A stretch of 64,000 nucleotides of DNA. It comes from Natronoarchaeum mannanilyticum (lineage in GTDB: Archaea; Halobacteriota; Halobacteria; Halobacteriales; Natronoarchaeaceae). The DNA lies in assembly GCF_039522665.1 (NCBI RefSeq), contig NZ_BAAADV010000001.1, positions 186,001 through 250,000 of the forward strand, read 5' to 3'. Under the pieces are notes generated by a model that worked only from the letters and a program-made list of their open reading frames with translations, ran no database searches and was not told the origin of the DNA. Shown piece by piece: positions 8,585 to 21,182 of the stretch (its first letter is position 1; each line of letters opens with the position of its first letter). Position numbers and translations under genes: made by a program.

Positions 8585-8668
8585 GCCGGCCGTCCCGCCT
8601 CCGGCCGTCCGGCCTCCCACCACCTGCGCTCGCCGCCTTTTTTGCGGACCGGGCGGTACCCCCGCCCG

Positions 8669-9571
8669 ATGGATCGGATCGCCGGCGTCCCGATTCCCGT
8701 CTCGGGACCCGCGCCGACGGGCTCGACCAACGCGTACGTTATCGGCCGATCGGACGCCTTGCTCGTGGATCCGGCCGACGAATCGGACGAACTCGAGCGG
8801 GCGCTCGACCGCCGGTCCCCCGCCGCGGTGCTGGCGACGCACGCTCACCCCGACCACGTCGGCGCGCTAGCGCACTACGCCGACGAGTACGACCTGGACG
8901 TGTACGCCCGATCGGGGTACGAGAAACGATTCGAGCGCGCGACCGGCGTGACGCCCGACGCCGGCGTGCGCGACGGGGACGTAGTCTCGGCCGGCGAATT
9001 CGGCGTCGACGTCACCTCGATGCCGGGACACGCCCCCGACCACGTCGCGCTGACGATCGACGGCGTCGACGCCACCTCGATGCCGGGACACGCCCCCGAT
9101 CACGTCGCGCTGACGATCGACGGCGTCGACGCCACGCCGGGTGACGGCCGACAGGTGCCCACCGAGCGACGAGGCGCTCGCGTCCTGGTCGGCGATCTCG
9201 CCGTCGCCGAAGGAAGTGTGTTCGTCGGCCCACCGGACGGCGACATGCGCGGCTACCTCACCGCGCTTCGGCGTCTACACGCGCGAGCGCCCGGCGAACT
9301 GCTGCCGGGGCACGGCCCGGCGATCGACGACCCCAGGGCGGTCCTGGGCCGTTTGATCGCCCACCGGCTCGATCGCGAGCGGGCGGTGCTGGCCGCCGTC
9401 CGGAACGGACACGAGACGCCCGACGCCGTCGTCGACGCGGCGTACGAGAAGGACCTCTCGGGCGTCCGCGACCTCGCCCGGCGGGCCGTGATCGCCCACC
9501 TCGAAAAGCTCGCCGTCGAGAGCGCGGTCGAGTGGGATGGCGAGCGCGCCCGACCGGTCGGCGATCGTTGA
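8669..9571 (+). CDS. Metallo-beta-lactamase-fold hydrolase with internal tandem duplication
   Basis: 300 residues. The dinuclear metal motif THAHPDHVGAL (residues 57-67) and the later GDLAVAEG and PGHGPAIDD ligands mark an MBL hydrolase of the glyoxalase II / RNase Z-like kind, with a C-terminal winged-helix segment (VVDAAYEKDLSGVRDLARRA) as in LACTB2-like proteins. Residues 112-131 and 132-151 are near-identical copies of one 20-residue unit containing SMPGHAPDH, the segment that supplies the third metal-binding His. Only one copy can occupy the site. The ATG at 8669 fits the family N terminus. Substrate unknown. Confidence 0.85.
   Translation: MDRIAGVPIPVSGPAPTGSTNAYVIGRSDALLVDPADESDELERALDRRSPAAVLATHAHPDHVGALAHYADEYDLDVYARSGYEKRFERATGVTPDAGVRDGDVVSAGEFGVDVTSMPGHAPDHVALTIDGVDATSMPGHAPDHVALTIDGVDATPGDGRQVPTERRGARVLVGDLAVAEGSVFVGPPDGDMRGYLTALRRLHARAPGELLPGHGPAIDDPRAVLGRLIAHRLDRERAVLAAVRNGHETPDAVVDAAYEKDLSGVRDLARRAVIAHLEKLAVESAVEWDGERARPVGDR
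9002..9121 (+). repeat. 60-bp in-frame tandem duplication inside the MBL gene
   Basis: Two adjacent 60-bp copies (9002-9061 and 9062-9121) differ at only two bases, one giving Val to Ala and one silent. The match continues for about 13 bases into a third partial copy. The unit encodes G-V-D-x-T-S-M-P-G-H-A-P-D-H-V-A-L-T-I-D. Confidence 0.95.
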
Positions 9572-11056: not shown

Positions 11057-11104
11057 CGATCAGTCCGCGCCGCCCGGCTGCCCGGCCGTCGCGAACGCCG
11101 ACAG
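11057..11104 (-). pseudogene. Second copy of the radical-SAM gene 3' end
   Basis: 48 bp that translate on the minus strand as LSAFATAGQPGGAD then stop, against LSAFATAGRTGGAD then stop at the true gene end (11214-11261). 42 of 48 bases agree. Most differences are at third codon positions, so the copy diverged under coding constraint or came from a related allele. Confidence 0.7.
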
Positions 11105-11113
11105 GTGCGACGA

Positions 11114-11183
11114 CCTTTTTCCGGTTCGGGTGGCCTCGCTACGCATCGGCCACCACTCACCGCAAAAAGCTCGGCCAAAAAGG
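11114..11183 (-). repeat. Structured intergenic element, copy 1 (nested inverted repeats)
   Basis: Outer stem CCTTTTT (11114-11120) with AAAAAGG (11177-11183); inner stem GGTGGCC (11129-11135) with GGCCACC (11148-11154). On the minus strand it follows the stop of the radical-SAM gene after a GAGTGAGCG...GAACGAGC arm (11184-11208). The same layout recurs at 20806-20867. It may act as a terminator, since T-runs flank the stem. Confidence 0.7.
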
Positions 11184-11216
11184 CTGCTCGTTCGCTGCGC
11201 TCACTCGCAGTTACGA

Positions 11217-12938
11217 TCAGTCCGCCCCGCCGGTCCGCCCCGCAGTCGCGAACGCCGACAGATCGACGTCCGCATCTATCTCCTCGGGCGACTCGTACGG
11301 CCGATTCACTACGATGTCGCCCGCGCGCTGCTTGCCGATGCCCGGGATCGCGGTGAGCTCGTCCATCGAGGCGTCGTTGAGATCCAGCGGGTGGGGAACG
11401 CCGGTAACAGAGCGGAACCCGTGGTCGACGATCGCGACGTCAATCGTCCGACCGAGTTCGAGCTCGCCGGGGATGCCGACGAGCAGCGGGTAAGTGCCCA
11501 GCTGGCGGCCGAACGTCTTGCCGTCCTGGTGGTACTCCAGGTGGACGTCCGGAAGCCGGGTGCCCGGCGGCGCGAGGCGCTGGAGCATCGGGTTGTCGAT
11601 CTCCTCGCGGACCTCGCGTTTGTACTGCTTGAACAGCTTCTTGTGGTCCTTGGCGATCTCGGCGCCGGTTTCGGACATGTCGGTGCCCGAAAAGGCCATC
11701 ACCTGGCGGATGTTCACGCGGCGCAGCATCAGCCCCTCGTCGTACACGCGCTGGAGGAACCGCTTGTTGTGCTCGAACGTCTCCTCGGTCTCGCCCTTGA
11801 GCCCGTGGACGAGGTTGATGCCAGGGAGCAGTTTCGGGAGCCGATTCGCGGCGTCCGAACCCCAGGAGGGACCAGTTCCCGGTTCCTCGCCGGGGCGCCA
11901 GCCGCCCTCCTCGTTGACGATCCGCACCGCCTCGAGGCACTCGTCGGCGGTGACGTTGAGGTTGTTGTCGCTCATCACGTCCGGATCAGCGGATTCGAGG
12001 CCGAACGCGGCGGTGTCGCCGGGCGTGTTGTGCTCGGCGATGATCCGGATTCCTTCCCTGGCTTTCTCGGGCCACTTTACCACGGTGATCGGGTTCATGT
12101 TGTCGAGGTGGAGCGTCTCCAGGTCGGGCGCCACCTCGCGGATTCCGCCGTACAGCGTTCGCAGCGCGTCGGGATTCGGCGCCTCGCCGTCGCCGCCGTA
12201 CGCGAGGATGTCGGCCTGTCGGCCGAGCCGGTAGTGTTTCACGCCGTGGTCCGAGAGCCGGTCGACCTCGTCGACGACGGACTCGGGCGGCCGGAACGAG
12301 GGGTTGCCGTACAGCGGCTCCGTACAGAACGAACAGCGGTACGGACAGCCCCGCGAGGTCTCCATCTCGGCGATCAGGTACTCGGGGTGGTTCGGGTGCT
12401 GTTCGACGACGAACGCCCCCTTCGCGGCCCAGCGGTCGACCTCCTCGACGTCGCGCATCCGGTCGCCGAACCCCTCCAGCCCGCTCTCGACGAGGTCGTA
12501 GGCGGCGGCCTCGACGTCGCCCTTCGCGACGAAGTCGTAGTCCAGGTCGTCCCGTTCGGTCTCGCTGGCGCCCTCGTTCTGGTCGCCGACGCCGAACTTG
12601 ACGGGCCCACCCATCAGGCAGGTCCCTTTGGCGGTCCAGGCGATCTCGCGGACCTCGTCGGGTTCGGCGGGCGTGCCGCCGACGTACTTGCCGGGGACGG
12701 TCATCCCGCCGAGGTAGCAGGTCAGGTCGGCCTCGGCGACGTCGCGCCACTTCGAGCGGTCGTCCCGGAGCTCGTCGATCGTGTGGTAGGTGATCTGCGC
12801 TTTCGGGACGCCGGCGTCGACGAGCGCGCCGGCGGTAAAGCGCGGGTACGTGGAGATGTACGGCGGGACCCCGAAGTGGGCCGGCTCGTCGACGTAGCCG
12901 TCGACCAGCGTCACGTCGAGATTCGCGGGGTCGGTCAT
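11217..12938 (-). CDS. Radical SAM protein with C-terminal helix-hairpin-helix
   Basis: 573 residues. Cys198, Cys202 and Cys205 (GCPYRCSFC) ligate the SAM-cleaving 4Fe-4S cluster. The first 190 residues look like the cobalamin-binding-like domain of B12-type radical SAM proteins, and residues about 525-550 (MDELTAIPGIGKQRAGDIV) form a DNA/RNA-binding helix-hairpin-helix. The combination matches the archaeal COG1031-type Fe-S oxidoreductases of unknown substrate; a nucleic-acid or tRNA modification is plausible from the HhH. Its last 48 bases are repeated 157 bp further downstream on the other side of a structured element. Confidence 0.88.
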   Translation of the reverse strand: MTDPANLDVTLVDGYVDEPAHFGVPPYISTYPRFTAGALVDAGVPKAQITYHTIDELRDDRSKWRDVAEADLTCYLGGMTVPGKYVGGTPAEPDEVREIAWTAKGTCLMGGPVKFGVGDQNEGASETERDDLDYDFVAKGDVEAAAYDLVESGLEGFGDRMRDVEEVDRWAAKGAFVVEQHPNHPEYLIAEMETSRGCPYRCSFCTEPLYGNPSFRPPESVVDEVDRLSDHGVKHYRLGRQADILAYGGDGEAPNPDALRTLYGGIREVAPDLETLHLDNMNPITVVKWPEKAREGIRIIAEHNTPGDTAAFGLESADPDVMSDNNLNVTADECLEAVRIVNEEGGWRPGEEPGTGPSWGSDAANRLPKLLPGINLVHGLKGETEETFEHNKRFLQRVYDEGLMLRRVNIRQVMAFSGTDMSETGAEIAKDHKKLFKQYKREVREEIDNPMLQRLAPPGTRLPDVHLEYHQDGKTFGRQLGTYPLLVGIPGELELGRTIDVAIVDHGFRSVTGVPHPLDLNDASMDELTAIPGIGKQRAGDIVVNRPYESPEEIDADVDLSAFATAGRTGGAD

Positions 12939-20076: not shown

Positions 20077-20292
20077 ATGGACGTTCCACTTGACCTCACG
20101 TCGTACGTGCGGGTGCTCAAGATGGCGAGCACGCCGGCGTGGGACGAGTTCTCACAGGTCGCCAAGATCGCCGGCGCCGGCATCCTGCTGATCGGGCTGG
20201 TCGGCTTCCTCATCGCATCCTTCATGTTCCACCTCGTGCCGCCCTACGAGGCGGGCTCGGTGATCGGACTGGCCGCGCCGCTGGGGGTCTAA
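20077..20292 (+). CDS. secE: SecE / Sec61 gamma translocase subunit
   Basis: 71 residues with an amphipathic N-terminal helix ([24 protein letters not shown]) and one long transmembrane helix ([21 protein letters not shown]), exactly the Sec61-gamma pattern. With SecY and Sec61 beta it forms the protein-conducting channel. The next gene, nusG/spt5, starts 6 nt after its stop, so the two are co-transcribed, the usual archaeal order. Confidence 0.93.
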
Positions 20293-20297
20293 CAGCC

Positions 20298-20735
20298 GTG
20301 CCGATGTACGCCGTCAAGACGACCGCGAGCCAGGAGCGGACGGTCGCGGACATGATCATGAACCGCGAGGTCGACGACATCCACGCCGCCCTCGCGCCGG
20401 ACTCGCTGACCAGCTACGTGATGGTCGAGGCCGAGGACGACGCCGTCCTCTCGCGGGTCCTCGAGGAGATTCCCCACGCCCGCGACATCGTCCCCGGCGA
20501 GAGCTCTATCTCGGAGGTCGAGCACTTCCTCTCGCCGACGCCGGACGTCGAGGGCATCGCGGAGGGCGACATCGTCGAGCTCATCGCCGGCCCGTTCAAG
20601 GGCGAGAAGGCCCAGGTCCAGCGCATCGACGAGGGCAAGGATCAGGTCACGGTGGAGCTCTACGAGGCGACCGTCCCGATTCCGGTCACCGTTCGAGGCG
20701 ACCAGATCCGCGTGCTGGACTCGGAAGAGCGATAA
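20298..20735 (+). CDS. nusG: Transcription elongation factor Spt5 (NusG)
   Basis: 145 residues from [20 protein letters not shown] starts the NGN domain that binds the RNA polymerase clamp; residues about 88-140 ([27 protein letters not shown]) are the KOW domain. The GTG at 20298 is preferred to the ATG two codons later because haloarchaeal Spt5 proteins usually begin two residues before YAVKTT. Partner Spt4 is not in the window. A structured intergenic element follows the stop. Confidence 0.93.
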
Positions 20736-20805
20736 CGTAGAACGTCCGGCGGCGAAGCCGTCGGTTCGCTGCGAGCGAACGGAGTGAGCGAGCAGAGTTT
20801 TTCGC

Positions 20806-20867
20806 CCACGTTTTTGCGCCGAGCGGTAGCCGAGCGTAGCGAGGCTACCCGAGGTGGAAAAACGTGG
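20806..20867 (+). repeat. Structured intergenic element, copy 2 (nested inverted repeats)
   Basis: Outer stem CCACGTTTTT (20806-20815) with AAAAACGTGG (20858-20867), inner stem GGTAGCC (20825-20831) with GGCTACC (20843-20849). It follows nusG after an arm CGAGCGAACGGAGTGAGCGA (20772-20791). Compared with copy 1 the inner stem has G to A on one side and C to T on the other, keeping the pairing. Confidence 0.7.
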
Positions 20868-20885
20868 TAGGGGAAAAGGTCGTAT

Positions 20886-21182
20886 TTAGAGTTCGGCGTC
20901 GTTCAGCCGGTCGACGACCTCCTGGAGGTCGGCTTCGGCCTCGATCTCGTCTTTGATCTCCTCGCGCTGACGGACTTCCTCGGAGTCGGCGCCGTAGGCG
21001 CGGACGTACTCCGCGCGGGTGTGCTCGTTGAACGCGTGGCGGATCGCGAGGTAGCCGTCCGGGACGACAACGCCGCAGACTTTGCACTCGCGGCGCGTGT
21101 GCTCGTTCGTCTGGTGGACGACCGCGTCCTCGACCGCGTCGAAGGTCTCCCCGCAGTCGTCGATGCCGCAGGCCCAGGTCAT
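20886..21182 (-). CDS. Small zinc-finger protein (two C2H2-like fingers)
   Basis: 98 residues. Finger 1 is WACGIDDCGETF...HQTNEH (Cys5, Cys10, then a His pair), finger 2 is CKVCGVVVPDG...RHAFNEH. The C-terminal 35 residues are a charged helix. Small zinc-finger proteins of this type are numerous in haloarchaea, with mostly unknown roles in regulation or protein contacts. It converges with nusG across the structured element. Confidence 0.75.
   Translation of the reverse strand: MTWACGIDDCGETFDAVEDAVVHQTNEHTRRECKVCGVVVPDGYLAIRHAFNEHTRAEYVRAYGADSEEVRQREEIKDEIEAEADLQEVVDRLNDAEL

Follow-up and report, generated by a model that had tools for sequence, protein, structure and literature searches.

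Position and fold of the two window copies

The window, a stretch of 64,000 nucleotides from Natronoarchaeum mannanilyticum (contig NZ_BAAADV010000001.1, positions 186,001–250,000), holds two copies of a short structured element, each situated behind a protein-coding gene. Copy 1 (11183–11111, minus strand) lies behind a gene for a radical SAM/helix-hairpin-helix protein (11217–12938, minus strand; Pfam PF04055 and PF00633) that ends at 11217. Copy 2 (20796–20867, plus strand) lies behind the gene of the NGN-KOW transcription elongation factor Spt5 (20289–20735, plus strand; PF03439 and PF00467), which ends at 20735, and is followed by a convergent gene encoding a DUF7565 protein (20886–21182, minus strand; PF24446). 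A structured element present twice had been reported in a first-pass annotation of the window and was borne out: the copies are 88% alike over 73 aligned columns, and both fold far better than their dinucleotide shuffles (z of −4.8 and −6.1, with none of 200 shuffles as good).

Hairpin I of copy 1 (11184–11210, minus strand), delineated from sequence and fold as CTGC-GA-GT-GA-GC[GCA]GC-GA-AC-GA-GCAG, has the stop codon directly before it and the first T5 run (11177–11181, minus strand), whose next base is G, directly after it. Hairpin II (11111–11173, minus strand) comprises the second T5 run (11164–11168), an A5 run (11116–11120) and the right end GGTCG (11111–11115), and is built from an outer T5/A5 stem, a GAG/CGA internal loop and a covarying inner stem, GGTGGCC/GGCCACC. 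Copy 2 additionally carries hairpin 0, CCGGCGGCGAAGCCGTCGG followed by TTCGC (20746–20764, plus strand), which was likewise assigned from sequence and fold and constitutes the left, optional portion of the full-length form. Its hairpin I, CTGC-GA-GC-GA-AC[GGA]GT-GA-GC-GA-GCAG (20769–20795, plus strand; sequence and fold), precedes a first T5 run (20798–20802, plus strand) with C as the next base (T5C). Its hairpin II (20806–20867, plus strand) contains the second T5 run (20811–20815), the A5 run (20858–20862), the right end CGTGG (20863–20867) and the covarying inner stem GGTAGCC/GGCTACC.

The exchange of G-C for A-T on both sides of the inner stem had thus been read correctly in the first-pass annotation. 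The outer stem described there is better assigned to another T run: each copy has two T5 runs, and the best fold joins the second one (11164–11168 and 20811–20815), which adjoins a G-G mismatch, to the A5 run. Further double changes between the copies, G-C/C-G at columns 12–72 and 15–69, are found in the lower stem. The GAGTGAGCG/GAACG arm, which had been counted as part of the same structure, is present but forms a separate hairpin before the first T5. As for the shared loop, it spans 11–12 nt, and the 11-mer alone is no commoner than chance at one mismatch, whereas the whole element is.

Two minor features of the window are recorded here. Behind copy 2, GGGGAAAAGGTCG (20871–20883) constitutes a second instance of the right end of the element (A-run plus GGTCG), as also occurs in loci L013, L065 and L072; it is possibly an extra T tract for the convergent gene or the relic of an older copy. 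Elsewhere, a metallo-hydrolase-like ORF (8642–9571) has a near-exact internal tandem repeat at about 9020–9140, in which SMPGHAPDHVALTIDGVDAT occurs twice.

Distribution of the family

A covariance model built from the two window copies (R1) yielded 19 matches in this genome, with E-values from 4e-22 to 3e-5, and 15 copies in a congener. A second model, refined from 35 copies (R2), found 4–31 copies per genome in nine genomes of the taxonomic family and, at a class-wide cut-off of E ≤ 1e-8, at least one copy in 88 of 116 Halobacteria genomes and in 39 of 46 genera. The covariance-model scan that the first-pass annotation had put forward as a check therefore returned many more copies behind genes, both in this genome and across Halobacteria. 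With one mismatch at most, the genome has 17 instances of the core T5-NGCCSASN-T5, every one inside an element, and the reversed-pattern control gave 0. When 84,980 prokaryote genomes were scanned with a pattern, at least 120 stretches were retrieved; among the matches listed, 118 were from Halobacteria and two from Bacteroidales, the latter presumed to be chance. The pattern of copy 1, at 3 mismatches, matched itself alone.

The element family had no match in viral contigs and was found in none of the phages, and among plasmids copies are carried by five haloarchaeal replicons. Within the window, Rfam gave 0 matches above the gathering threshold, and no description of the family was found in the open-access literature, to which the search was confined. 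We regard the element as a previously unlisted, terminator-like hairpin family of Halobacteria, absent from Rfam and without an earlier description found in open-access literature.

At two pairs of apparently orthologous gene ends in two congeners (L022/L035 and L024/L034), the elements differ in their stems or in spacer type, with GGTCG as against GGTGG and the whole lower stem swapped, which suggests that the element was replaced in place.

Structure and covariation

Read from the stop codon, the order of the element is an optional hairpin 0, hairpin I, T5, GCCSAS (NGCCSASN), hairpin II with its outer T5/A5 stem, and GGTSG. Among 33 distinct copies, 89.5% of cells were paired and 13 of 24 pairs had changes on both sides, with a covariation score of 0.294 against 0.073 for shuffled data; 0 of 500 shuffles reached this. 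When the partner was shifted by 1–3 columns, 1–6 double-change pairs were left, compared with 13 unshifted. The alignment was fitted to the structure of the model, which favours pairing, yet the double changes sit in freely varying columns. The contention of the first-pass annotation that covariation implies selection on pairing was a thin argument with two copies and holds with 33.

Within the hairpins, the Watson-Crick parts vary freely while the 5′-GA..GA-3′ steps are fixed. GAG/CGA flanks the stem of hairpin II in 128 of 130 copies, a count in part imposed by the search pattern, and GA..GA lies just inside hairpin I in 61 of the 92 copies in which its stem is clear. Most loops are GNA or GA-NN-GNA-NN-GA. 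The GA..GA steps are presumably sheared tandem G-A pairs, and the GNA loops presumably very stable mini-hairpins. The recurring combination of covarying stems, fixed GA..GA steps and GNA caps may serve as a motif that is recognised in DNA or RNA. A classic k-turn was considered for the internal loop and rejected, the loop having a one-nucleotide bulge beside a G-C pair.

The full-length form of hairpin 0, AGCATCCG..CGGTTCAC, recurs in other copies. Its strict pattern had five matches in the genome, three of them in elements and the other two without this hairpin. Ahead of the first T5, 92 of 128 copies have a hairpin arm of at least 5 bp, compared with 22% of random positions; in 77 of 128 copies, compared with 2% of random positions, the arm immediately preceding it measures at least 7 bp.

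A putative bidirectional terminator

In a Haloferax volcanii reporter, T5C terminated 95% of transcripts and a hairpin 59% (PMC7237163). In the present family, the base after a T5 or T6 run is C in 103 of 129 copies when the sense strand is read, and in 112 of 129 when the opposite strand is; on the sense strand, window copy 2 reads T5C and copy 1 reads T5G. Many copies occupy the gap between convergent stop codons. Among elements lacking a duplicated gene end (described below), the stop codon of a convergent gene lies within 5 nt of the right end in 26 of 63, as against 0 of 60 of those with a duplication (p = 1e-9), these counts being approximate with mechanical ORF calls. Copy 2 is of the convergent kind: the 150 nt between the stop codons of Spt5 and DUF7565 are nearly all element.

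Because of the T5C motif and the placement at gene ends, we infer that the element functions in termination on both strands, which lends weight to the terminator guess of the first-pass annotation. Transcripts of the upstream gene would stop at one of the two T tracts, the first or the second, and those of a convergent gene at the opposite-strand T5C; the hairpins would pause RNA polymerase or protect the RNA end. Overall, the element is probably a bidirectional terminator of Halobacteria that has two or three hairpins and T5C on both strands, is positioned behind stop codons and belongs to a spreading family. It represents a class-wide, terminator-like archaeal family with strong covariation, in a domain where terminator structure is poorly defined.

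The T-stretch (T5C) terminators of H. volcanii resemble it in having T5C behind the stop codon, in the usual 3′-UTR range (PMC7237163). The element differs in its two T tracts, its fixed 8-nt spacer and a T5/A5 hairpin that serves both strands, as well as in its covarying hairpins and signs of mobility; the consulted passages of PMC7237163 treat T stretches and hairpins as separate and contain no repeated family of this form. With the hairpin-plus-T-run intrinsic terminator it shares a stable GC hairpin immediately before the T run (77 of 128 copies at ≥7 bp).

The near-invariant GAG/CGA internal loop and the GNA loops beside covarying stems also resemble a recognised RNA motif, as would befit a 3′-UTR RNA to which a protein binds, or which shields the end of the mRNA, as a stabiliser or processing signal, with termination taking place elsewhere. 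For an RNA made from one strand, however, T tracts conserved on both strands and an element that abuts convergent stop codons would be needless, and we consider this reading unlikely.

Duplicated gene ends

Behind 60 of the 123 elements with flanks, window copy 1 included, the 3′ end of the upstream gene occurs once more. At copy 1, self-BLAST matched the 3′ end of the radical SAM gene including its stop codon (LSAFATAGRTGGAD*; 11214–11271, minus strand) to a second copy behind the element, hereafter tail-prime (LSAFATAGQPGGAD*; 11057–11115, minus strand), with 85% identity; the start of the tail-prime overlaps GGTCG, and the junction reads GGTCG-TCG-C. The corresponding frequency was 9 of 235 at random positions (p = 5e-24, this and the other p-values being indicative because the sample is not phylogenetically independent) and 5 of 247 at other gene ends. 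One of these five ends at the stop and is an element missed by the search pattern; after its removal, 4 of 246 remained, none ending at the stop.

The second tail starts sharply, 0–6 nt after GGTSG in most loci; the end of the duplication lies no more than 6 nt from the stop codon in most of the 42 loci with an assignable frame and, likewise, in most single-copy loci. In single copies its length is variable, from about 20 to 200 bp, and the tails are up to 100% identical. In 16 of 26 clear cases, the second tail has one extra pyrimidine, always immediately behind its third nucleotide. Arrays with n elements have n+1 tails, as in L032 (unit of 144 nt) and L040 (unit of 156 nt), where the units are perfect. 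Other arrays consist of four elements 154 nt apart (G064:C2:819411–819942) and of three elements (L158).

Over all duplicated loci, the tails differ by 50 synonymous and 27 non-synonymous changes, a synonymous share above that which a simple site-count model predicts for a decaying copy next to a constrained one (p = 2e-4); in L029, a prolyl-tRNA synthetase, six of seven codon differences are synonymous. Mismatches climb from the right junction to the stop, from 6.6 over 10.6 to 15.9% (p = 8e-8), a rise that could come partly from weaker constraint at C-termini. Both the synonymous bias and the rise are as expected if the host sequence near the junction was duplicated and the stop-near part of the front tail came from another lineage.

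The idea that the tail-prime keeps the beginning or the promoter of the following gene intact was rejected: it fits L020 (probably HisF), which has an ATGA overlap with the next gene, but fails for copy 1, where the next gene starts about 250 nt further on, and for L021 (probably ETF alpha), which seemingly faces a convergent gene.

Empty sites and probable foreign tails

Relatives hold empty sites. In congener G001, the orthologues of L011 (copy 1), L016 and L020 have a single tail and no element, and in G007 and G008 the stop codons of Spt5 and DUF7565 touch, with the element absent (L210 and L211). Together with the duplicated gene ends at the insertions, these sites lend support to the miniature mobile element that the first-pass annotation had offered as another possibility.

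At some loci the front tail resembles that of another lineage and the displaced tail is native. The isoleucyl-tRNA synthetase (IleRS) gene of L018 (G000:C1:1142746–1145809) keeps the sequence type of the genus until about 60 nt into the duplicated stretch, beyond which it continues as VEDGHRKTWDVEGTEMEIAIAPV.., similar to Haloarcula amylolytica, while the displaced tail, NGNRKTWEVEGVEMTLAVEPL.., is congener-like. By these similarities, the C-terminus of this IleRS clearly appears to be a chimera to which two lineages contributed, the original C-terminus now lying cut off behind the element. For TiaS in G001, the displaced tail has 3 differences from the congener, compared with 6 for the tail before the element, and the front tail has 4 differences from genus g2, compared with 7 for the displaced tail; here the case for a native displaced tail and a front tail from another genus is weaker, the differences being few. 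At window copy 1, the polarity, that is, which of the tails would be foreign, is only suggestive. Gene conversion in polyploid haloarchaea could have kept tails alike and blurred the foreign copy, a caveat to any such polarity.

The same junction is found for the radical SAM gene in this genome and in G007, and for TiaS in G001, G002 and G003. Such sharing across genera fits descent with losses or transfer of tail-element-tail units, rather than a new insertion each time. The family offers a readable record of short gene-end pieces moving between genera.

Proposed mode of spread

Given the duplicated tails and the arrival of some elements with a foreign gene end, the family looks like a stop signal spreading by recombination. 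The element would arrive in a genome attached to the end of an orthologue that stems from another lineage, and recombination within the conserved gene would replace the tail of the host gene. The right end GGTSG would become linked to the host gene roughly 20–200 nt before its stop codon, and the tail that the host had originally would remain as the displaced copy. This duplicate tail would give the element gene-specific homology on both sides and so would permit transfer to further species by homologous recombination, whatever the downstream gene, as well as clean loss or the building of arrays.

Elements of the tyrosine-integrase type that insert at a gene 3′ end bring in a tail that makes the gene whole again, while the tail of the host ends up on the far side. 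The present element is like them in that the incoming tail appears to replace the gene end, clearly for IleRS and more weakly for TiaS. It differs in its size of about 100–170 bp, in having no integrase, for which it is too short, and in its many unrelated target genes; a search for larger, autonomous versions within 8 kb, with genes lying between the tails, turned up one weak case.

In its most far-reaching form, which we advance tentatively as a possibility, the proposal is that the family represents a class of non-coding mobile element of a new kind, in which a hairpin terminator would capture the end of the gene that hosts it. The tail-element-tail units would then home, through homologous recombination, to that gene in other species and thereby swap C-termini and terminators across Halobacteria, and a dedicated activity would make the right junction and the extra pyrimidine. 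If this gene-tail mechanism were true, terminators would spread in the manner of homing elements, and essential proteins, aminoacyl-tRNA synthetases among them, would have their C-termini rewritten.

A non-autonomous transposable element, mobilised by a transposase in trans, would account for the precise right end 0–6 nt after GGTSG, the recurring left end AGCATCCG..CGGTTCAC, the multicopy state, the empty sites and the tails of up to 100% identity. It would have to produce unusually long and variable target duplications, whereas those made by transposases are generally short and of fixed length, and its stop-codon placement would arise because only gene-restoring insertions survive. No terminal inverted repeats were seen in the element, the duplication ends at the stop codon itself and not anywhere in the spacer, and neither diverged synonymous tails nor a chimeric IleRS is expected from simple target duplication, so that we hold this origin to be fairly unlikely.

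Still less probable, in our estimation, is a target-primed insertion. In such an event, an RNA or single-stranded DNA would anneal to the host gene through its gene tail and would be the template from which the right end is copied. The right end coincides with the base of hairpin II, the host stretch by the junction is identical and the stop-proximal part more diverged (also in IleRS), and the single extra pyrimidine at a fixed distance has an enzymatic look. However, no reverse transcriptase or nicking enzyme was linked to the element family, and tails of another lineage would need foreign RNA or single-stranded DNA.

Local tandem duplication of a gene end and terminator by slippage at hairpins, without movement between genes, would suit the perfect-unit arrays (L032, L040) and the four regularly spaced copies of G064, but it is very improbable in view of the bare tail, rather than a tail-element unit, that comes last in single copies and in the inspected arrays (save for G005 at ETF, with a degenerate second element), the empty sites in relatives, the similar elements behind unrelated genes, and the tails of two lineages within one locus (IleRS and TiaS).

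Relation to known repeats

Among described repeats, the SMRs, MITEs and PATEs of Haloquadratum walsbyi (PMC3119063) are, like the element, short, non-coding, multicopy and haloarchaeal. PATEs have palindromes near their ends, MITEs and SMRs have terminal inverted repeats, and SMRs and PATEs cause no target duplications (PMC3119063). In contrast to SMRs and PATEs, 60 of 123 element copies are flanked by direct repeats of gene ends; in contrast to MITEs and SMRs, the element ends, AGCATCCG.. and ..AAAAAGGTSG, are not inverted repeats of each other, as judged by eye; and in contrast to the fixed short target duplication of MITEs, the duplications here measure about 20 to 200 bp, are variable and are anchored at stop codons. 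The element departs from defining features of all three groups. Bacterial REP/BIME sequences (PMC2817692, PMC12306157) are also intergenic palindromes and also occur in arrays; the element differs from them in sequence and in its T tracts and gene-end duplications.

The pairs of tail and tail-prime further led us to consider a diversity-generating retroelement; the hosts identified here are housekeeping genes, and the changes are mainly synonymous.
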